Source: Dietzia sp. ANT_WB102 (lineage in GTDB: Bacteria; Actinomycetota; Actinomycetes; Mycobacteriales; Mycobacteriaceae). From it: a DNA stretch of 64,000 nucleotides. The stretch covers positions 1,295,630 through 1,359,629 of the forward strand of contig NZ_VOBA01000001.1 of NCBI RefSeq assembly GCF_008369165.1, given 5' to 3'. A model generated the notes under the pieces. That model saw only the letters and a list, made by a program, of their open reading frames with translations, made no database searches and was not told where the DNA came from. Numbering within the stretch: the stretch's first letter is position 1; every line of letters begins with the position of its first letter. The translations under genes and the position numbers were made by a program. Positions 55,268-63,121 of this stretch are shown here, one piece after another.

Positions 55268-55688
55268 CGACGACGAAGGCCCCGACCAAGCAGCCTGTGA
55301 GTTTCGTTAGGAGCCCATACCAACTTGACAGTTGTGTAGTAGCCATTCTGCGGTTAATGTCGCAGGCAGTCGGTGGCGGAGCCTGATTCCCCCTCTAGGT
55401 GCCGCCGACTCCGCACGATGAGCGGGATGCGCCGACCACCCCCCGGTCGCCGTCCTGCCGCGTGCGTGACAGAGTCGCCGGTGGCCGCGGAACCCCCCTC
55501 CGCGGCCCCGGTGCTCACTCACTCAGGTGCGTTTCGGAAGAACCAGGGCATCACAGACAGCGTCGCGGGCAGCCGCGGGCGGAGTCGTCGTGAACCGGCT
55601 ACCACAATCGAGCGGGTGAACAACATGGCTTGACGACTGTGGTCAAGGCCCTTCTCGACGCCGTCGACTTGGTGTCATTCGGGAGAAT
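55268..55688. other. Intergenic region after ku
   Basis: About 420 bp with no convincing gene. Short frames are present, but none resembles a protein family. The right part probably belongs to the decayed solute-binding-protein gene that becomes recognisable at 55689. Confidence 0.5.
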
Positions 55689-56059
55689 GTGCCTGCATCG
55701 CAGCAATCCGCCAAGCTGTTCAGCGGCGATTTCGAGATCACCATCGGAGGCATGAGCCCCTCGGACGCCGACGCATCGGCGAGTTTCCTGGCCAACGTGG
55801 TGCCGGGCGGATCTACCAAAATCAACGGCGTCGACGATCCTGAGCTCGATGCAGCCAGGGCCCTCAACTCGGTGGAGACGCTGGACGAGCAGATGGCTGC
55901 GTTCCACTGCCTCCAGAAGGAGTTCAACCGGGTTATGCCGTTCGCCGTCTTCGCAAACGCCGAGGAGTACGTGGTGGTGGACGAGACGGTCAAGGGCGTC
56001 AGCCGACGGTGGCCTCCACGATGCTGTTCGACGGCGCCTATATGACTGGCAAGCGGTAG
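55689..56059 (+). pseudogene. Frameshifted C-terminal remnant of a peptide/oligopeptide ABC substrate-binding protein
   Basis: The translated stretch (VPASQQSAKLFSGDFEITIG, ASASFLANVVPGGSTKINGV, DPELDAARAL, DEQMAAFHCLQKEFNRVMPF) reads like the C-terminal lobe of a family 5 solute-binding protein. Near position 56003 the frame jumps: loss of one base replaces TVASTMLFDGAYMTGKR (ending TAG at 56057-56059) with RRWPPRCCSTAPI. The N-terminal ~two thirds of such a protein is missing upstream. It is therefore a truncated, frameshifted relic. Confidence 0.65.
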
Positions 56060-56180
56060 GTATTCCAAGTAGGCGCTATCCAAACCTGAGTCTTAGTTCC
56101 TCGAAGAGTGCTTGCGCTACGGCGAGCTGTTGTAAACATAGGTCAAAGCTGTACGTTCCCTTAGTGTTTAGGAGGCTGTC

Positions 56181-57815
56181 GTGACCCCTCGTACCGGGTA
56201 TCGGCAATTTTCTCGTTCGGCAGCCTCGACTGTCGCCTTTATGGTGGCCACCGGCCTCGCGCTGACGACCCCGCCAACCGTGTTCGCCCAGCAGTCGCCG
56301 CAGACGAGTCAGCCGGTCCGGGTGGCCGAGACAGTTGCGCCTGCGGAGCGATCGGATACGACCTTGCGGGCGGCGCCGATGCCGGCTGATGCGATGCCGC
56401 TGGACGAGCCACCTGCTCGAGCATCTGCGATGGCTCGTCAAGCTCCCGGCACGGCGTTGTCTCAGGAGCAGTGGGATCGCCGCCCTGTCGCCCAGCGTGG
56501 CCAGACCCCCCAACTCGAACAGGAGTGGCGGGCTACCGGCAATCCCAACCGGCAGATCGTGCCGGGTGAGATGCGGTCGGACCGCGACGAGATTCCGGCA
56601 GGCTTCACCAAGGAAGAAGCCGACAAGGCTGAAACAATGGAAGCCGCACTCAACAGCCAAGACGGCGCGAATCAGGCCCTGGCGGCTCCGGGCTGCCAGG
56701 TTTACTGGCCAGCACCTTACGAGGTATGCGGTGCCATCCGGGACAAGTACAACGAGCTCGGCGGACCGAACAGCTTCCTTCTGTTCCCGAAGACCAACGA
56801 GCTGACCAACCCCGACGGCATCGGCAAGCGCACCGAATTCTTGAACGGCCCTATCTACTGGTCCCCCCAGGGCGGCGCCCACCCGGTCGTGAATCACTTC
56901 CTCGCTGCCTGGGCCCGCCACGGCTACGAGAACAGCTACATCGGTTACCCAACCACCGACGAGATCACCAACCCAGACGGTATCGGCCGCCGACAGCACT
57001 TCACCGGCTCCACCATCTACTGGAAGCTCAACGAGGCATACAGCATCGGAGGAGCAATAGCCGACAAGTGGCACGAACTCGGCGCAGAGCAAGGCATGCT
57101 CGGGTATCCCATCAGCGACGAGAGAGTTCTTCCCGATGGCGTTGGGCGCATGAACCGCTTCGAGAATGGTGTGATCTACTGGCACCCCAGTACGGGAGCG
57201 AAATATCTTGGCGGAACTATCCTAGACAGATGGTCAAATTCGGGTTATGAACTCGGGGAATACGGGTACCCGGTTTCAGATCCGACTGGCCAGGATGGAA
57301 TCTGGTACGTTCAGCAGTTCCAATCTGGCCAGCTTAGTGGAACGAGAATGCATGAAGATCCACTCGTTCTCCAGTATAGCGATGGTCAAGTAGTCGCCTG
57401 GAACTATGAGTCGACAGTTCTCCCTTGCCTAGAGTGGGCGTATCCAGCCGAACGGAACATTGCGGCATTTCCGACTCGAGATTCGAAAACGGGAAGCAAT
57501 CTGGTCACTTTGTCTTGTGCGGTTTTTAGGGAGCACATTGTCGACATGCCGGATTTGGAAGACGGACACTTCTACGAATTCCCTGAGGCCCAGGACTGGC
57601 TCGATTTCATGTCATGCGTGTATCACACCCTAAATGCCGAGGATACCCCACTTGGATTTGCCGACTATCCAAACTGGGGACGCCAACGCGGAAACAATTA
57701 CAAGGATGTAGGCAGCGTCGTTATCGTCTCCCCGGACGATACTATCGTTACAGCATGGGCCGGTGGTCCGCCTAAGAGTGGGGACTGGAGCGACTGCCGC
57801 TATAGGCTTGCCTAG
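56181..57815 (+). CDS. Secreted LGFP-repeat protein with AT-rich C-terminal domain (putative toxin)
   Basis: 544 aa from GTG 56181 (GGAGG 5-9 nt upstream). The Sec signal peptide has its core STVAFMVATGLALTTPP and a VFAQQ cleavage site. A Pro/Ala linker runs to ~170. Four LGFP repeats (~180-385) are of the form CGAIRDKYNELGGPNSFLLF and AWARHGYENSYIGYPTTDE; these repeats bind mycolata cell wall. Residues ~395-544 are a separate domain with Cys416, Cys446, Cys479 and Cys539, ending VGSVVIVSPDDTIVTAWAGG. Its DNA is AT-rich, unlike the repeats. A small gene follows after 14 bp. This layout resembles polymorphic toxins; the fold is unassigned. Confidence 0.8.
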   Translation: MTPRTGYRQFSRSAASTVAFMVATGLALTTPPTVFAQQSPQTSQPVRVAETVAPAERSDTTLRAAPMPADAMPLDEPPARASAMARQAPGTALSQEQWDRRPVAQRGQTPQLEQEWRATGNPNRQIVPGEMRSDRDEIPAGFTKEEADKAETMEAALNSQDGANQALAAPGCQVYWPAPYEVCGAIRDKYNELGGPNSFLLFPKTNELTNPDGIGKRTEFLNGPIYWSPQGGAHPVVNHFLAAWARHGYENSYIGYPTTDEITNPDGIGRRQHFTGSTIYWKLNEAYSIGGAIADKWHELGAEQGMLGYPISDERVLPDGVGRMNRFENGVIYWHPSTGAKYLGGTILDRWSNSGYELGEYGYPVSDPTGQDGIWYVQQFQSGQLSGTRMHEDPLVLQYSDGQVVAWNYESTVLPCLEWAYPAERNIAAFPTRDSKTGSNLVTLSCAVFREHIVDMPDLEDGHFYEFPEAQDWLDFMSCVYHTLNAEDTPLGFADYPNWGRQRGNNYKDVGSVVIVSPDDTIVTAWAGGPPKSGDWSDCRYRLA

Positions 57816-57829
57816 CGAAAGAGGAATGA

Positions 57830-58231
57830 GTGAAGCCGTATGTCAAGCTGATGCCAGAATTTGGCCACCCTTCTTCAATATGGACGAATATCACCAATAG
57901 GCCGCCAGGTCAGGGCGGGCCTCCGTGGGTAGAACTTGACGAGTTTCCCGTCTCTGCCGAGCTCGCGGAGGGATTGACTATATGGACTCGCGAATTTCAC
58001 GAGCACTGCTCGGGCGAGTTTAGGGCGGATCTTGGCAGGGTTACTTGGCGGGATGATGGATTCGACGTAGATCAGTGGAATTTGCGAGGGATCGAATTGG
58101 CTCGATCAATATCCGCTGAAATTCCTGAGGCCGAGGTTGTATACTCCGGCGGAAGATATTTAGATAGAAGTGAGCCGTCCAGGGTTAAGAGAATTACGTT
58201 CAAGGGCGGCGTCGAGGTCTTTGCTGATTAA
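57830..58231 (+). CDS. Small hypothetical protein downstream of LGFP protein, candidate immunity protein
   Basis: 133 aa, acidic, without signal or TM segment, so cytoplasmic. GTG 57830 start, 14 bp after the LGFP gene, with an AGAGG-like site upstream. Visible features are Trp-rich (SIWTNITNRPPGQGGPPWVE, VTWRDDGFDVDQWNLRG). Composition is AT-rich like the end of the preceding gene, suggesting both were acquired together. I recognise no family. Position, size, acidity and shared composition are what one expects of an immunity protein to the C-terminal domain of the LGFP protein, but no sequence motif proves it. Confidence 0.6.
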   Translation: MKPYVKLMPEFGHPSSIWTNITNRPPGQGGPPWVELDEFPVSAELAEGLTIWTREFHEHCSGEFRADLGRVTWRDDGFDVDQWNLRGIELARSISAEIPEAEVVYSGGRYLDRSEPSRVKRITFKGGVEVFAD

Positions 58232-58428
58232 AGCGTGAATCGTCCTGTTTGACGGCGCAACTTTGCAAGCTGATGCAAAATAATCGCGCTTCGTGAGTTT
58301 TCCATCGACGCTATCCGGCCCTTTCCTAGGTGTGCTCGGTATTGCAGGCTTCGCCCGGTCTTGATCCGCCACACAGGTTTCCAAGCTGACTTACGAGCTA
58401 CCTAAGGCGAGGTGTTCAGCGCCGATGA

Positions 58429-59094
58429 CTACCAAAGTGACCAAGGGCGACCGACATCGGCGGCGTCGTTAATGCGTCGGTCAATGATGTGCGGTGATTC
58501 GCCTGCGGCGTGGGCGTTCCGGATGGCGGCGGCGATAGCGCGGGAGAGGCCGGCGGGGCCACGGGTGTCGGCCAGGGGGCTGTTTGGGCCGTGTCGCCTG
58601 GCGAGGTATTCGGTGCGGTTGTCGGTGGCGGTGCCCAGGCGTAGGTGGTGGGGGTTGGTGCAGCCGGCGTAGTCGCAGCGGTGGCACAGGATGGAGTCGT
58701 TCAGTGCGCTCCAACCGAGTCGGTCGATAATGCCGTGTTCGAGTTGGTAGGCGTACAGGTGCGCGGGGACGGTGCCGCGGCGGGAGAGTCCGGGCAGGCT
58801 GGCGGCGCGGAAGGAGCCGTGTCCGGTGGAGGAGATCGCTCCGATCCACGGCCAGCATTGATCGGTGCCGCGGCGGTAGCGCTTGGCCTCGAACCGCTGC
58901 TGGGTCGCGGAGTCGGTGAGCCAGACCCGCCACAGCTTGGCTGGGGTGCGCACCGGGCGCGGGTCGCCGAGCAGGGAGAGCTGTTGGGTGTCGGTTCCTT
59001 CGGGTCGTGGGAACAGGGCGGCGGTCATGGTGGCCTCGAGGGGTGTCGGGGAGCTGTTACCGGGTGGGGTGAGGATAGGTGCCGTCTCCGACAT
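58429..59094 (-). CDS. HNH endonuclease, last gene of the integrase cassette
   Basis: 221 aa from ATG 59094, overlapping the zinc-ribbon gene by 4 nt. Residues ~70-175 form an HNH_3-like nuclease: CWPWIGAISSTGHGSF, VPAHLYAYQLEHG, then CHRCDYAGCTNPHHLRLGTA and TDNRTEYLARR. These show the Cys pairs, the NPxHL motif and Asn expected for metal binding and catalysis. The N-terminal ~55 residues look unstructured, and the C-terminus is a short helical region. The coupling suggests a DNA-cleaving role in the element's movement or target choice; this is inference. Confidence 0.8.
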   Translation of the reverse strand: MSETAPILTPPGNSSPTPLEATMTAALFPRPEGTDTQQLSLLGDPRPVRTPAKLWRVWLTDSATQQRFEAKRYRRGTDQCWPWIGAISSTGHGSFRAASLPGLSRRGTVPAHLYAYQLEHGIIDRLGWSALNDSILCHRCDYAGCTNPHHLRLGTATDNRTEYLARRHGPNSPLADTRGPAGLSRAIAAAIRNAHAAGESPHIIDRRINDAADVGRPWSLW

Positions 59095-61373
59095 CAGTTG
59101 CAGTTGTCGAGCCGTGCGGCGAGGTAGACGCCCTGGTCGCGGGCCGCTAGAGCTGTCCAGCGCAGGGCGGCGGTGATAGACAGGCCGAGCAGGTCGGCCA
59201 GGACGGAGGCGGGCAGGTCGGAGGCCAGGGCCAGCAGCGCGCCGCCGCGGGCGGCGCGGGTGTCGAGACCCAGGTCGCGGCCCAGAAGCTGAGCCAGGCG
59301 GCTGGGGTGGAGATGGGCTGCGTTGCGGCCGGGGAAGAGCCAGATCGGGGTGCCTGGTGGGCGGGGATCGTCGATGGGTGCCGGTTGTGCTGCGAGGTCT
59401 CCGATGAGGGTGGCCAGGATGGGTGGCAGTAGGACCGGGTGGTCACGAAGTGTTAGGTAGGTGTCGTCGCCTGCGGTGGTGATGTCCTCGGCGCGTAGTG
59501 CGGCGATTCGGATGAGGTTTTGCCCGAATAGCAGGACCAGTGCGCCGGAGACACGCACGCGCAGGTCGAGGGAGGGGTCGGTGAGGCACCGGCGCAAGAG
59601 TTGCCACCGGGTGTCTTCGTCGAGGACGTACCCGGGAGGGCCCTCGGTGCCTAGCCACGGCACGTGGAGGTCTGTGGTGAGCCCGCGTCCAGCGGTCCAG
59701 GTCAGGAAGTCGCGGACCCGGCGACGGGTGGTGGCACCTTCATCGAGCCAGGAGTCGACGTCGTACTGGGTTGCTTGGGTGAGGTCGGTGCCGCGGTCCT
59801 GGAGCCAGTGCAGGAAGTTGGCGGCGCATCGGATGCGGGTTCGCGCGTATTTGCCTGCGGAGGGGCTGTTACCGCGGGCGCGGCGCAGTCGGTGGGTGAC
59901 GTGCCAGGTGGCGTAGGGCTGGAGTACGACGGCGATCGGTGGAGGTTGGTCGGCCAGCAGTGCGTCGATCCATAGGTTGAGTCCGTCGACGATGTCCTCT
60001 CGTGGGGGCAGAACCTCCAGGGCTATGAGTAGCCGCCGAAGATGGTGGGTGCGGGTGTTCTGAGGCTTGCGGTCCAGGCTCGCGTGGGTCAGGGGTTCAT
60101 CCTCGGCGATGAGGGTGGTGAGCAGGATGAACCAACTGTGCGGGCTCTCGAGCAGTAATGCGGTGCGCCGCGGGGGGTAGGACTTGAGCAGCAGGGCTCG
60201 AATGGAGTCGGTTTGGGCGCGTAGGTGCGGATGTGTGCACTGCAGGGCTTGGTCGACTCGGGCGGAGTTGCGGCAGCCGAGGCAGTCGGTGGCGGTGACC
60301 AGGAGGTCGATGGTTCCGCAGGAGCGGCAGTACCAGTTCCTGTGCTCACCAGAGCACGGGCCGCAGAGCGGGTGGCCGTGCGCGTCGAGGCCGGCCTGGG
60401 GTCGCCGATGACCGCAGGAAGTGCAGTTGATGGGGTTCTCGCGCAGCTGGTGGCAGCAGGGATCGCACACTGGCCCGAGCGGCAGGGTGATGCGCACTGA
60501 TCGGGTGAGACCGCAAATCGTGCAGCGCTCTTTGGTGGCGGGCTTCGATTGCCGATGGGGTCGTTGTTTGGATCGGCATGACGAGCAGATCGGTCGTCCG
60601 GTGGGCACTCCCCTGTCGCAGGGTTTTTCTTGGCCGCAGATGGTGCATTCGGCGATCGGTGGGGTGTAGCAGCGGTAGCAGATCCACGTGCCTGGGAGGT
60701 CGGGGTCGCGGCGGGCGTGAGGCGTAGATCGCGTGCAGTGGTGGCAGGTGCGGGGGCGGCTGCGGTGGTAACAGCGCGGGCAGAGCGGTCCGGTGTCGGT
60801 GATGGCGTGAGCCGGTTGATCGGGGCGTCCGCAGTCGCTGCAGGTGTACAGCTTTTTGGGCCCGCAGGCCTGGCAGAGGGGTTGTCCATCGACGCGGTAG
60901 GCAACCGGGCGGGGCCGGTGGCAGCGTGAGCATGGTGGTCGGCGATCGGGGTCTGCGCGTCGGCATTGAGCGCAGAGCACGCCGTCCTCTTCGCGGGCGG
61001 CGGGTACCGCGAGTATTCCGCATCGCCGGCACGGGGTTCGCCGGGAGGCGTTGTAGCAGGATAGGCACCAGCGTCCCCCGCTCGGTGCGCGATAGCGCAG
61101 GCGACGTTCTTTGCCGCAGCCGGAGCACTGTGGCGGGGTGATTACTTCGGTCGGAAGCGCCGTGACCTGGTCGAGTAGCCGGTGCAGTCCTGGCGGTGCG
61201 TCATCTGGGCGGGTGCGCACTGTTGCGAGATTTCGACGTACGTAATGGAGCACGTGATGAAGTTCGTCCGGTAACAGTTCCGCGGCGGTGATTGCAGTGC
61301 GATGTGCCGCCTTGCTGTGGTCGGAGTAGAGGAGGGCGAGCACCGCCGCCAGGCCAGTCGTGGGGTCGGTCAT
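59094..61373 (-). CDS. Tandem nine-zinc-ribbon protein with degenerate tyrosine-recombinase-like C-terminus
   Basis: 759 aa from ATG 61373. After a helical N-terminus (~1-80), nine tandem C-x2-C...C-x2-C ribbons span ~83-367 (examples CSGCGKERR, CRRCGILAV, CTICGLTRS, CTSCGHRRP). Residues ~500-575 resemble a core-binding SAM-like domain and ~580-745 a recombinase catalytic fold: GALVLLFGQNLIRIAALRAED and LADLLGLSITAALRWTAL align with integrase motifs. The box-II His is Arg (RAARGG), the second His is Leu731 and the nucleophilic Tyr is Trp739, so it should not cleave DNA. It overlaps both neighbours by 4 nt. Probably a DNA-binding accessory to the active integrase. Confidence 0.75.
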   Translation of the reverse strand: MTDPTTGLAAVLALLYSDHSKAAHRTAITAAELLPDELHHVLHYVRRNLATVRTRPDDAPPGLHRLLDQVTALPTEVITPPQCSGCGKERRLRYRAPSGGRWCLSCYNASRRTPCRRCGILAVPAAREEDGVLCAQCRRADPDRRPPCSRCHRPRPVAYRVDGQPLCQACGPKKLYTCSDCGRPDQPAHAITDTGPLCPRCYHRSRPRTCHHCTRSTPHARRDPDLPGTWICYRCYTPPIAECTICGQEKPCDRGVPTGRPICSSCRSKQRPHRQSKPATKERCTICGLTRSVRITLPLGPVCDPCCHQLRENPINCTSCGHRRPQAGLDAHGHPLCGPCSGEHRNWYCRSCGTIDLLVTATDCLGCRNSARVDQALQCTHPHLRAQTDSIRALLLKSYPPRRTALLLESPHSWFILLTTLIAEDEPLTHASLDRKPQNTRTHHLRRLLIALEVLPPREDIVDGLNLWIDALLADQPPPIAVVLQPYATWHVTHRLRRARGNSPSAGKYARTRIRCAANFLHWLQDRGTDLTQATQYDVDSWLDEGATTRRRVRDFLTWTAGRGLTTDLHVPWLGTEGPPGYVLDEDTRWQLLRRCLTDPSLDLRVRVSGALVLLFGQNLIRIAALRAEDITTAGDDTYLTLRDHPVLLPPILATLIGDLAAQPAPIDDPRPPGTPIWLFPGRNAAHLHPSRLAQLLGRDLGLDTRAARGGALLALASDLPASVLADLLGLSITAALRWTALAARDQGVYLAARLDNCN

Positions 61374-61696
61374 GAGCCTGTGGGTCGGCGGATCGTGGTG
61401 CGTCGCACGGGTGGCGGGTGGCCGGCTTCGGCGGTGCCGGTGGGTTTGGTGACCGAGACGTTGGCGGTGGTGATTTCGATGAGGTCGGAGGTGTCGACGT
61501 CGAGGATGTCGCACAGTGCGGCCAACACGTCCAAGCTGAGGCGTTGCGGGGTGGTGGTGACCAGGCGGTAGACCTGTTCGCGGGACAGGTGGACGCCGCG
61601 TTCGGCTAGTAGCGGGACGAGGTCGCTGGTGGCGAAGTGTCCGCGTTCGGCCATCAGGGTGCGCAGGTGCCAGGTGTAGCTCATCTTCTTGTTCAC
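61370..61696 (-). CDS. XRE/Cro-type helix-turn-helix protein
   Basis: 108 aa from GTG 61696 (overlaps the integrase stop, GTGA). The Cro/C1 HTH covers about residues 5-75: WHLRTLMAERGHFATSDLVP, LLAERGVHLSREQVYRLV and LDVLAALCDILDVDTSDLIE. The last ~35 residues are a Pro/Thr-rich tail. It likely regulates the cassette; the inverted repeat over the integrase start is a natural binding site. Second gene of the four-gene run. Confidence 0.85.
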   Translation of the reverse strand: MNKKMSYTWHLRTLMAERGHFATSDLVPLLAERGVHLSREQVYRLVTTTPQRLSLDVLAALCDILDVDTSDLIEITTANVSVTKPTGTAEAGHPPPVRRTTIRRPTGS

Positions 61697-62817
61697 GGGC
61701 TCTCCCAGAGGTCGGGGTGGCGGCTCAAGGATCGGCGCAGCAAGCGGTTGCGGTACTCGTCGGACACGCCGGTGTAGATGGCGGTGGTCGCGGCGTAGGA
61801 GTGCCCGACCTGAGTGGAGACAAACCGTTCGGGGTAGTCGAACTCCACCAAGTGGGTGACATAGGAGTGGCGCAGGCAGTGCAGGTCCAGCACCGGGTCC
61901 AGGCCGGCCGCGTCGCGGGCGGTGGTGAACGCGTCATTGATGCGGCGCATGGAGATGCGGTCTGAGCGTTCGGTGACCCACAAGGCTGGATGGGATCGGC
62001 ATCCCAGCAGTGGCCGGATTTCGTTTCGCCAGTTCTCCAGGACCGGCACGATCCAGTCCATTTCCGGGACGGTCAGCACGGTGCGACGTTTAGCCGCCCC
62101 TCCCCTGCTGGCTTTGCCGAACCGGACGAACACAGCACCACAGTTGCGGTAGCCCGGCGTCGTGGGGTTGTGCCGCAGGTCGGCTATATCCAGGCCCCAC
62201 GCTTCCTGGCGACGGAGTCCGAACGCGTAGATCGTTTTCAAAAGCGCCGCGTCGCGTTGCGCAGTCAGCGCGCCCTTGCGTCCGGTTCCCGGGATCGCTT
62301 CGGCGCGTCCGTCGGCGGCATCGAACAGTGCCTGCACTTCGTCGTAGGTCAGTGGTCGGCGGCCGGGGGCGCCTTCGTAGTCCGTGGTGTGGACGATGGT
62401 GTTCCACTCATGCAGGATCTGCTGCGGCACCGCGTCGAAGAGTTGTTGGCACGTCGAGGCCCAGCCGTAGCGGGGATCGGTGATGTAGGTCAGGAACATT
62501 CGGATGGTGATCTCGTACATCCGCGCGGTCGACATCGCGATCGGGTGCTCTGCTTGCCGGTGGTCGGAGATGAACGCTTCGACGTCTGCGCATGTCCACG
62601 ACCACGGGTAGTCGTTGCTGAAAATGGCGAAGCGTCGAATCAAACCAAGGCGCACCTCGATCGTCTTGGCTTTGAGGAATCGGGCACGTTGTTGCATCGC
62701 CCAGCCGTCGAGCATTGCCTCGAACACGGCGGGTTCGGCGTCGAGGAACGTCACGCCGTCCGGTAGGGCCTGGCGTGCGGAACCGGGGAGTTCACCCCTC
62801 ACAACCATGTTGCACAC
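61693..62817 (-). CDS. Tyrosine-type site-specific integrase
   Basis: 374 aa from GTG 62817 (ATG 62808 is an equally good start). The N-terminal SAM-like core-binding domain (~30-140) is followed by a catalytic domain with the full set: Arg202 in FGLRRQEAWGLD, Lys235 in RFGKASRGG, His313 and Arg316 in HCLRHSYVTH, His339 in QVGHSYAATT and nucleophile Tyr348. It should catalyse strand exchange for the cassette. No ribosome-binding site is evident, so translation may be leaderless or controlled at the inverted repeat covering the start. First gene of the cassette. Confidence 0.92.
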   Translation of the reverse strand: MCNMVVRGELPGSARQALPDGVTFLDAEPAVFEAMLDGWAMQQRARFLKAKTIEVRLGLIRRFAIFSNDYPWSWTCADVEAFISDHRQAEHPIAMSTARMYEITIRMFLTYITDPRYGWASTCQQLFDAVPQQILHEWNTIVHTTDYEGAPGRRPLTYDEVQALFDAADGRAEAIPGTGRKGALTAQRDAALLKTIYAFGLRRQEAWGLDIADLRHNPTTPGYRNCGAVFVRFGKASRGGAAKRRTVLTVPEMDWIVPVLENWRNEIRPLLGCRSHPALWVTERSDRISMRRINDAFTTARDAAGLDPVLDLHCLRHSYVTHLVEFDYPERFVSTQVGHSYAATTAIYTGVSDEYRNRLLRRSLSRHPDLWESP

Positions 62818-62827
62818 GATGCAACAT
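62807..62827. promoter_or_regulatory. Inverted repeat ATGTTGCA-N5-TGCAACAT over the integrase start codon
   Basis: Perfect 8-bp arms with spacer CACGA. The two candidate start codons (GTG 62817, ATG 62808) fall inside it. It is a candidate operator for the HTH protein or an integrase core site. A shorter palindrome CCAGCG-A-CGCTGG lies at 62861-62873. Confidence 0.6.
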
Positions 62828-62978
62828 CGAGTCGTTTAATGCAATGGCTAAAGTGGAGGTCCAGCGACGCTGGTGTGATTGGAAAGCGCGTTCCGATTGT
62901 CGTCCAGCGGGTTCACGATGAGGTCGAATAGTCGACCAGATGCAACTTCGCTCGGTTCGAGCCGTAAGCCGTATGTCT

Positions 62979-63040: not shown

Positions 63041-63121
63041 GTGCTGATGCTGCCGACGTTGTTGTGGCTGGATGAGATCCGCCCGGCGAGCCTGGAGGGG
63101 TTGGATACGGGGGCAGGTCCG
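63041..63121 (+). pseudogene. Fragment of a ku gene
   Basis: 81 bp aligning with 54698-54780 of the intact ku gene. Five scattered substitutions and a net 2-nt deletion near the end are seen. In frame it still reads LLWLDEIRPASLEGLDTG versus LLWPDEIRPASLEGLDTE. Sequence on either side does not match ku. It is a relic of a second ku copy or of a duplication/recombination event around the integrase cassette. Confidence 0.75.

Follow-up and report, generated by a model that had tools for sequence, protein, structure and literature searches.

This study deals with a stretch of 64,000 nucleotides of the genome of Dietzia sp. ANT_WB102 (contig NZ_VOBA01000001.1, positions 1,295,630 to 1,359,629 of the forward strand), referred to below as the window, and with a putative transposable element found in it. 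The open reading frame (ORF) listing of the window includes four consecutive genes on the minus strand, spanning 58429-62817, which encode a tyrosine recombinase (Int), an XRE-type helix-turn-helix protein (HTH), a zinc-ribbon protein (ZnR) and an HNH nuclease-like protein (HNH). An initial annotation had described them as a four-gene unit at 58429..62827, with 4-nt overlaps at all joins, and had proposed either a mobile element that uses an accessory DNA binder plus a nuclease or a domesticated or defense module. The four genes and their order were confirmed, and a mobile element with an accessory DNA binder agrees with the mapped ends, the intact target alleles and the near-identical copies with unrelated upstream flanks described below. 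The unit as originally drawn was too short, and an end at 58429 was rejected, since a distal terminus lies at 56044. As this far end was found and the flanks rejoin, the element was taken to occupy 56044-62957 and to include, besides the HNH gene, a gene for an LGFP-repeat protein and a small gene next to it (Table 1). Comparisons within the family were carried out with 151 genomes, the window's own included.

Table 1. Features of the putative element and its insertion site, with positions in the window.
Feature	Position	Strand	Basis
Whole element, 6,914 bp	56044..62957	(-)	Distal terminus by likeness to G034 and 37-bp pattern; Int-side end by G034/G153 junctions and rejoined solute-binding-protein (SBP) gene end
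Distal terminus, GAATA-GAATA-GCCAGTC type	56044..56081	(-)	Likeness to G034 and 37-bp pattern
Cargo: secreted LGFP-repeat protein, 544 aa, distinct C-terminal domain	56181..57815	(+)	Pfam LGFP, 2.8e-63
Cargo: small gene beside the LGFP gene, possible immunity partner	57830..58231	(+)	Homologue adjoins the C-terminal domain in 5/5 other genomes
HNH nuclease-like gene, passenger in one clade; start probably at 59028	58429..59094	(-)	PHROG matches, spacing in relatives
ZnR: zinc-ribbon protein, 18 CxxC, likely degenerate recombinase-like C-terminus, 759 aa	59094..61373	(-)	Alignments and weak family matches
XRE/HTH_26 DNA-binding protein, 108 aa	61370..61696	(-)	HTH_26 match
Int: predicted tyrosine recombinase, complete catalytic set, 374 aa	61693..62817	(-)	Phage_integrase match and conserved residues
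Int-side terminus, AACCGAGCGAAGTTGCATCTGG	62936..62957	(-)	Junction comparison, dyad motif
Target, left part: presumed C-terminal relic of SBP gene	55639..56043	(+)	83% identity to G156 (L034) up to the junction
Target, right part: CGAGCCGTAAG, completing ...ASTMLFDGAYIEP (stop)	62958..62970	(+)	Junction comparison

Core Proteins and Their Operon

In a Pfam scan Int matched Phage_integrase at 3.6e-17. When 18 proteins were aligned, that of the window among them, R202, K235 and H313 were kept in all and R316, H339 and Y348 in 17, and these residues have roles in catalysis by tyrosine recombinases. Int can be read as a tyrosine recombinase with a complete set of catalytic residues, active-looking as it had been annotated. 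The XRE assignment of the second protein also held, with a match to HTH_26 at 8.7e-14.

The likely start of ZnR is the ATG at 61373, which overlaps the stop codon of the HTH gene, rather than the GTG at 61514. The nine zinc ribbons of the initial annotation are in agreement with the 18 CxxC motifs of the protein, a number shared by 36 of the 49 proteins, the window's included, in the larger of the two ZnR alignments used (A5; the smaller, A1, has 19). Phage_integrase was matched at E <=0.1 by 5 of the 19 A1 proteins, the best at 3.2e-5, and a distant member encoded by pREL1 matched Phage_int_SAM_1 at 2.3e-4 together with a double zinc ribbon. In a register of the recombinase motifs placed by eye, the Tyr position included, R709 is kept in 47/49 and R622 in 35/49 of the A5 proteins; the His of the HxxR that precedes R709 is replaced by Arg in 39/49, and Trp occupies the position of the catalytic Tyr in 47/49. 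ZnR is likely, although not shown to be, a degenerate and catalytically dead recombinase.

A scan of species genomes with the Int alignment, of which the best 80 of 244 matches were kept, yielded 79 distinct loci, all of them actinobacterial. HTH and then ZnR follow Int, in this order, in 75 of the 79. Int and HTH overlap by 4 nt in 67/76 trios and HTH and ZnR in 55/76, counts that are biased upwards because the start giving the closest approach to such an overlap was selected each time. Several minimal elements of 3.8-4.0 kb (L118, L122, L144/L147, L145) have the three core genes only. The initial annotation had proposed to tabulate the joint conservation of the four neighbors; the three-gene core is found together and HNH is rarely with it (5/79), and the strict four-gene unit was rejected on this count and because the spacing between ZnR and HNH is not conserved. 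Int-HTH-ZnR is a conserved three-gene operon, widespread in actinobacteria.

Within the family, ZnR matches were present in 38 of the 151 genomes, the window's own among them. Searches with tblastn gave ZnR matches in 239 plasmid records, 22 of which covered at least 80% of the protein, and none in phage records; one IMG/VR contig matched Int (two peptide patterns of the scan), and a phage origin was rejected on these results. The plasmid copies of USK10 and D310-1 (L002, L003) are probably inactive, since the int frame of the former and the ZnR frame of the latter are interrupted. A far relative on pNOCA01 combines an Int match of 99.6 bits and an HTH match of 41.8 bits with a 658-aa frame that has 8 CxxC motifs and a weak match to ZnR. 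This member (L206) and the distant one on pREL1 (L191) lie away from the Tn554-like pairs published for the same plasmids.

Termini, Targets and Intact Sites

In two genomes of the same genus, G034 and G153, an HNH gene is interrupted by the Int-side end where it encodes GAISDGYGR. This target gene is continuous across the junction in five intact alleles, two in G150 and one each in G157, G152 and G072. In G034 the second half of the HNH gene starts exactly where the first one stops, after a GCCAGTC end. The G034 element is about 11.4 kb long, a length counted over two contigs that we assume to be contiguous, as ZnR extends from one into the other. Insertion in the HNH gene is exact and without target duplication, and no duplication was seen wherever both junctions are known. 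The lack of any empty-site allele, which according to the initial annotation would speak against mobility, does not apply to this family.

The far end in the window, at 56044, differs from that of the G034 element at 5 of 27 positions. Once joined, the window flanks encode ASTMLFDGAYIEP followed by a stop codon, and the intact gene of G156 (L034) ends in ASTMLFDGAYIEE and a stop. From its translation we take the left relic to be part of an ABC-transporter SBP gene, and the element appears to be inserted at its 3' end. The window genome has a single copy of the element; two further Int matches are recombinases of 35-36% identity. To the right of the element, a 74-bp piece (63041-63114) is 93% identical to the ku gene of the same genome (54698-54771). 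Additional ku pieces near the locus were also seen in L080, L082 and L084, for which reason the piece was considered an old partial duplication.

With up to 5 mismatches allowed, the Int-side motif GCGGAGTTGCATCTGATG occurs in the 700 nt upstream of int at 67 of the 87 sites evaluated, where some of the matches (L005, L140, L150, L152) are to a similar dyad close to the start of int. At 100-230 nt upstream it occurred in 49 of 76 regions, in 26 of them on the reverse strand, as the motif is a dyad, and shuffled copies gave 0. The second TTGCATCnGATACAA dyad, about 30-45 nt upstream of the start of the int match (for instance in L005, L150 and L152), is a candidate operator. For the opposite end a 37-bp pattern (GAATA..GAATA..GCCAGT) was written after viewing about ten ends, those of the window and G034 included. 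It had 29 matches in 455,564 nt downstream on the int strand and 0 on the opposite strand, compared with 3 in 1,181,668 nt of upstream sequence, both strands taken together. Two successive far-end motifs lie 31 and 1,377 nt after ZnR in L100, and L130 has a looser one besides the end that was scored; insertions in tandem or nested in one another may be the cause.

Both ends could be scored at 18 loci, giving element sizes of 3.8-9.2 kb. In the seven of these whose target is an integrase-like gene, the flanks rejoin in frame and at the same codon (7/7), the rejoined product reading MRxxE and then V, I or L. Judged by the Int-side sequence, the targets were integrase-like genes at 9 loci and HNH genes at 6. 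At another 11 loci the target is the 3' end of a gene for a protein with CxxCxSTSGCS at its C-terminus, presumably the class II ribonucleotide reductase gene nrdJ, and different element types occupy this same position. The target follows GCCAGTC directly in both G034 and the window, which have different targets; the pattern of the wider survey requires CCAGT. On the Int side, the 6 nt that separate GCGGAG from the target are not constant (AACCGA, TACCGG, TTTTGG and others): they differ even among elements in the same nrdJ target and are equal within near-identical groups, and in a second G153 contig (L079) the outermost two differ from those of the window. These 6 nt could be a spacer carried along from the previous site.

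Near-identical elements were found next to unrelated upstream flanks. Those of M. iranicum and Mycobacterium sp. AT1 are 99.88% identical over 11,321 bp, up to where the stored sequence stops, and their upstream flanks have no blastn match to each other; the same is true of L113/L117 (98.8%), L113/L114 (97.3%) and L004/L112 (95.7%). A 3,944-bp contig of S. oceani consists of exactly one element, 100% identical to a chromosomal copy, and points to a second copy or a circle.

HNH and Other Cargo

Matches to PHROG endonuclease/HNH families (2.6e-13 and 1.2e-11) are in line with the annotation of HNH as a nuclease. Its gene follows the core in the 5 loci mentioned, as well as in G034, USK10 and D310-1. 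The 4-nt overlap between ZnR and HNH is present in the window and G034; gaps of 95 and 90 nt take its place in USK10 and D310-1, and HNH translation probably begins at the in-frame ATG at 59028. On both grounds the strict coupling of all four genes fails. The 5 loci have an Int at least 67% identical to that of the window, several others in that set stopping at contig ends. HNH is a passenger specific to one clade. Between the HNH protein that is carried and that of the target, identity is 28% over 94 residues (E 4e-4), and the two have PHROG families in common. Apart from the window, all six carriers with a motif-resolved target (L091, L095, L096, L098, G034, USK10) sit in HNH genes, and the carried HNH is absent from all 18 loci in integrase or nrdJ targets for which downstream sequence is available (that of L120 and L136 is too short). 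As it is distantly related to the gene into which relatives insert, the carried HNH may be a target-gene-like passenger or rescue copy, the carriers forming one clade. An HNH gene without the trio or recognizable ends was found in two Dietzia genomes (L077 9349-10002, L078 3-440), where the similarity to the window ends at 59093, the boundary between ZnR and HNH.

The C-terminal domain of the LGFP protein occurs in 6 of the 151 genomes, the window's own included, and the association with the small gene listed in Table 1 makes the two a possible secreted effector-immunity pair. Pfam matches identified an SBF-family pump and an MFS protein in the G034 cargo, in which we also take other frames, from their translations, to be ArsC-, ArsR- and FAD-enzyme-like. 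Other relatives carry a TIR protein (L130), a CHAT/TPR protein (L132), a subtilase (L119), an MFS pump (L158), methyltransferases (L115, L151) or a cutinase-like protein (L135). The proposal of a domesticated or defense module found no support at the window locus, though the TIR and CHAT proteins are among the cargo of its relatives.

Discussion

Considered as a whole, the results make us confident, short of certainty, that the element is a cargo-carrying, site-specific transposon whose engine is the three-gene operon of Int, HTH and ZnR. Int would cut and rejoin DNA through its catalytic tyrosine, as its conserved residues indicate. The element probably leaves as a circle in which the GCCAGTC end meets the AACCGA-GCGGAGTTGC end. 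This circle would then recombine with a short target, usually coding sequence, without duplication; the junctions themselves were found to be exact. ZnR most likely binds DNA by means of its zinc ribbons and its degenerate recombinase-like domain, and may hold the two unlike ends, or the target, in a synaptic complex. The HTH protein is most likely a regulator or a directionality factor, perhaps with the TTGCATCnGATGCAA dyads as its sites of action, both at the Int-side end and close to the start of int. The cargo, outside the engine, would consist of HNH and the LGFP pair.

A number of observations count against this interpretation. Transposition is what we infer from comparing sequences; no transposition, circle or excision was observed. 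Only 28 of the 76 trios have the far-end pattern, and 8 of these 28 were viewed when the pattern was written. At the window junction a single locus of the 13 compared, L034, aligns across, by 12 nt, and 6 of the 13 stop just before it. Among the near-identical pairs, the identity of L095/L096 and of L113/L117 continues as far as the stored sequence does, which limited the comparison to upstream flanks, and L007 and L122 are not independent because they share an 86% identical flank. ZnR is missing from 4 of the 79 Int loci: L120 and L143 run into a contig end, in L097 about 700 nt follow the HTH gene, and L104 has a truncated int with no HTH in the next 1.4 kb. In about 10 further loci ZnR is spread over more than one frame. 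The link between ZnR and recombinases is a weak one, drawn from the faint Phage_integrase hits and the Phage_int_SAM_1 match of the pREL1 protein. The window ZnR had no family match in Pfam, NCBIfam, PHROGs or PADLOC; Phage_integrase was matched by 4 of 7 ZnR proteins scanned singly, in the C-terminal third and always under Pfam's cut-off, and by 0/49 of the A5 proteins, and an hhalign profile comparison of ZnR with Int produced no match. Furthermore, Y750 of ZnR, 11 residues past the Trp at the presumed Tyr position, is nearly invariant (Tyr in 44/49, Phe in 5/49), and the register or the loss of activity could therefore be wrong. The dead recombinase-like domain of the initial annotation agrees with the degenerate His and Tyr positions; with Y750 conserved, catalytic loss is not proved.

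Prokaryotic tyrosine-recombinase elements have been grouped into integrative and conjugative or mobilizable elements (ICE/IME), strand-biased circularizing integrative elements (SEs), GInts, RIT elements and Tn554 (PMC10214605); what is said here of known systems follows parts of the papers cited. The element appears to work like the Tn554, SE and GInt transposons but has a gene set different from theirs. What all four have in common is an active recombinase with a recombinase-like and a small partner, together with specific targets and cargo behind the operon. Members of the Tn554 family (TnpA, TnpB, TnpC) are likewise tyrosine-recombinase transposons that need several genes and carry varied cargo (PMC12486829, PMC10214605), and they insert at a specific target without duplicating it (1984 paper cited in PMC10214605), two properties also seen here. 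Tn552-II of this family carries, in a similar manner, a homologue of its target gene (PMC12486829, PMC10214605). The difference is that TnpA and TnpB both have the RHRY set, whereas the element combines one clearly active recombinase with a zinc-ribbon partner that lacks it. The third small protein, TnpC in that family and an XRE-type protein (HTH_26) here, may be a further difference. Tn554 and SEs bring in 6-7 bp at the far end, and none were recognized in the element, though the pattern used would partly hide them. SEs (IntA, Tfp, IntB, Srap) resemble the element in having an active recombinase, a recombinase-like Tfp without RHRY, a small protein and cargo after the core operon; they differ in having two RHRY recombinases and a 6-bp footprint, and in that study they were found in Gammaproteobacteria only (PMC10214605). 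The intA-tfp-intB-srap set is absent here, as the core has one active recombinase gene. GInts (ginABCD) share the operon at one end, the variable cargo, the short far end and the coding-gene target, but encode three integrase-like proteins plus GinD and are bounded by attL/attR direct imperfect repeats of 10-11 nt (PMC5385486); the core of the element consists of Int, HTH and ZnR only. RIT elements also have three overlapping genes, all of them for catalytic recombinases (PMC10214605), while here HTH is no recombinase and ZnR lacks the full set. As for the relaxase and conjugation genes of ICE/IME, a general family scan found no such family in the window element, and cargo ORFs of the other delimited elements were scanned in part. 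Taken broadly as a tyrosine-recombinase transposon, the element has what such a definition asks for, namely an active-looking recombinase, defined ends, empty sites and copies in different places. No description of the Int-HTH-ZnR trio was found in the open-access literature searched.

Tn554-like elements of actinobacteria were studied in 2012, reportedly by Van Houdt. That our element is one of these, with a long and a short tyrosine recombinase, is suggested by the same hosts, the similar lengths (a 611-828 aa partner beside a recombinase of about 350 aa) and the same general layout (PMC3414803). However, both proteins are reported there with catalytic motifs, and the long partner belongs to Famint27/41/53 (PMC3414803). 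When pairs from FB24, JS614, pREL1 and pRHL3, picked by size and leaving the pRHL2 pair outside the comparison, were examined, the long proteins gave zero matches to the ZnR profile; H..R..H..Y could be made out by eye in three of them, the fourth keeping R, H and Y, and the Int-profile scores of the pairs were 13.6-26.2 bits. In addition, pREL1 and pNOCA01 hold separate distant members of the ZnR family elsewhere, and pRHL2 has broken ZnR pieces, so that membership in the 2012 group seems quite improbable. We give equally little credit to the idea that Int alone moves the element, as in an IME or a prophage remnant, with HTH as a regulator and ZnR as an unrelated passenger kept by linkage. 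Many integrases do act with only a small directionality factor. Nevertheless, the minimal elements hold precisely the three core genes, the 4-nt overlaps are often kept, ZnR is seldom missing, and viral records offer no more than the single IMG/VR match to Int.

Somewhat less improbable, yet still unlikely, is a part for HNH in the machinery, for example by homing-endonuclease-like cutting of the HNH-gene target. The occurrence of the motif-resolved carriers in HNH genes, its absence from the 18 integrase- and nrdJ-target loci and the PHROG families common to both HNH proteins are what one would expect in that case, but the carriers belong to one clade and are not independent events. The window element has HNH and sits in an SBP gene, most elements do without it, and the gene stands alone in two Dietzia genomes; the nuclease component of the mechanism initially proposed was not shown. 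A chromosomally domesticated module that no longer moves would account for the nrdJ site and conserved flanks shared by several Streptomyces strains, for the single copy in the window genome and for the broken frames of some copies. We judge it the least probable of these explanations, given the different element types at the same nrdJ position, the copies on plasmids and the elements of 96-99.9% identity with unrelated upstream flanks elsewhere. The site-specific transposon driven by Int, HTH and ZnR is the interpretation we retain.

Genomic islands that plasmid records annotate only as an integrase, an XRE/HTH regulator and a hypothetical protein would thereby be given an engine and mappable ends. 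Among the cargo of the delimited copies are genes presumed to confer arsenic resistance and others for TIR and CHAT proteins, a subtilase and transporters, as well as what may be an effector-immunity pair. There is a fair chance that the trio transposon constitutes a separate, sixth group. A fuller proposal, which we advance tentatively and regard as possible rather than probable, is that of a sixth group of prokaryotic tyrosine-recombinase transposons, actinobacteria-wide, with a single active recombinase and, as its partner, a dead recombinase with nine zinc ribbons. This partner would read conserved coding sequences, namely those of HNH, integrase and nrdJ genes, and in this way set the target as a selector that is made of protein and can be swapped. 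The manner in which a recombinase-like partner determines the target is a question shared with Tn554, SEs and GInts, and the clades with different targets (HNH, integrase, nrdJ) may serve as natural swaps for the role of this partner in target choice.

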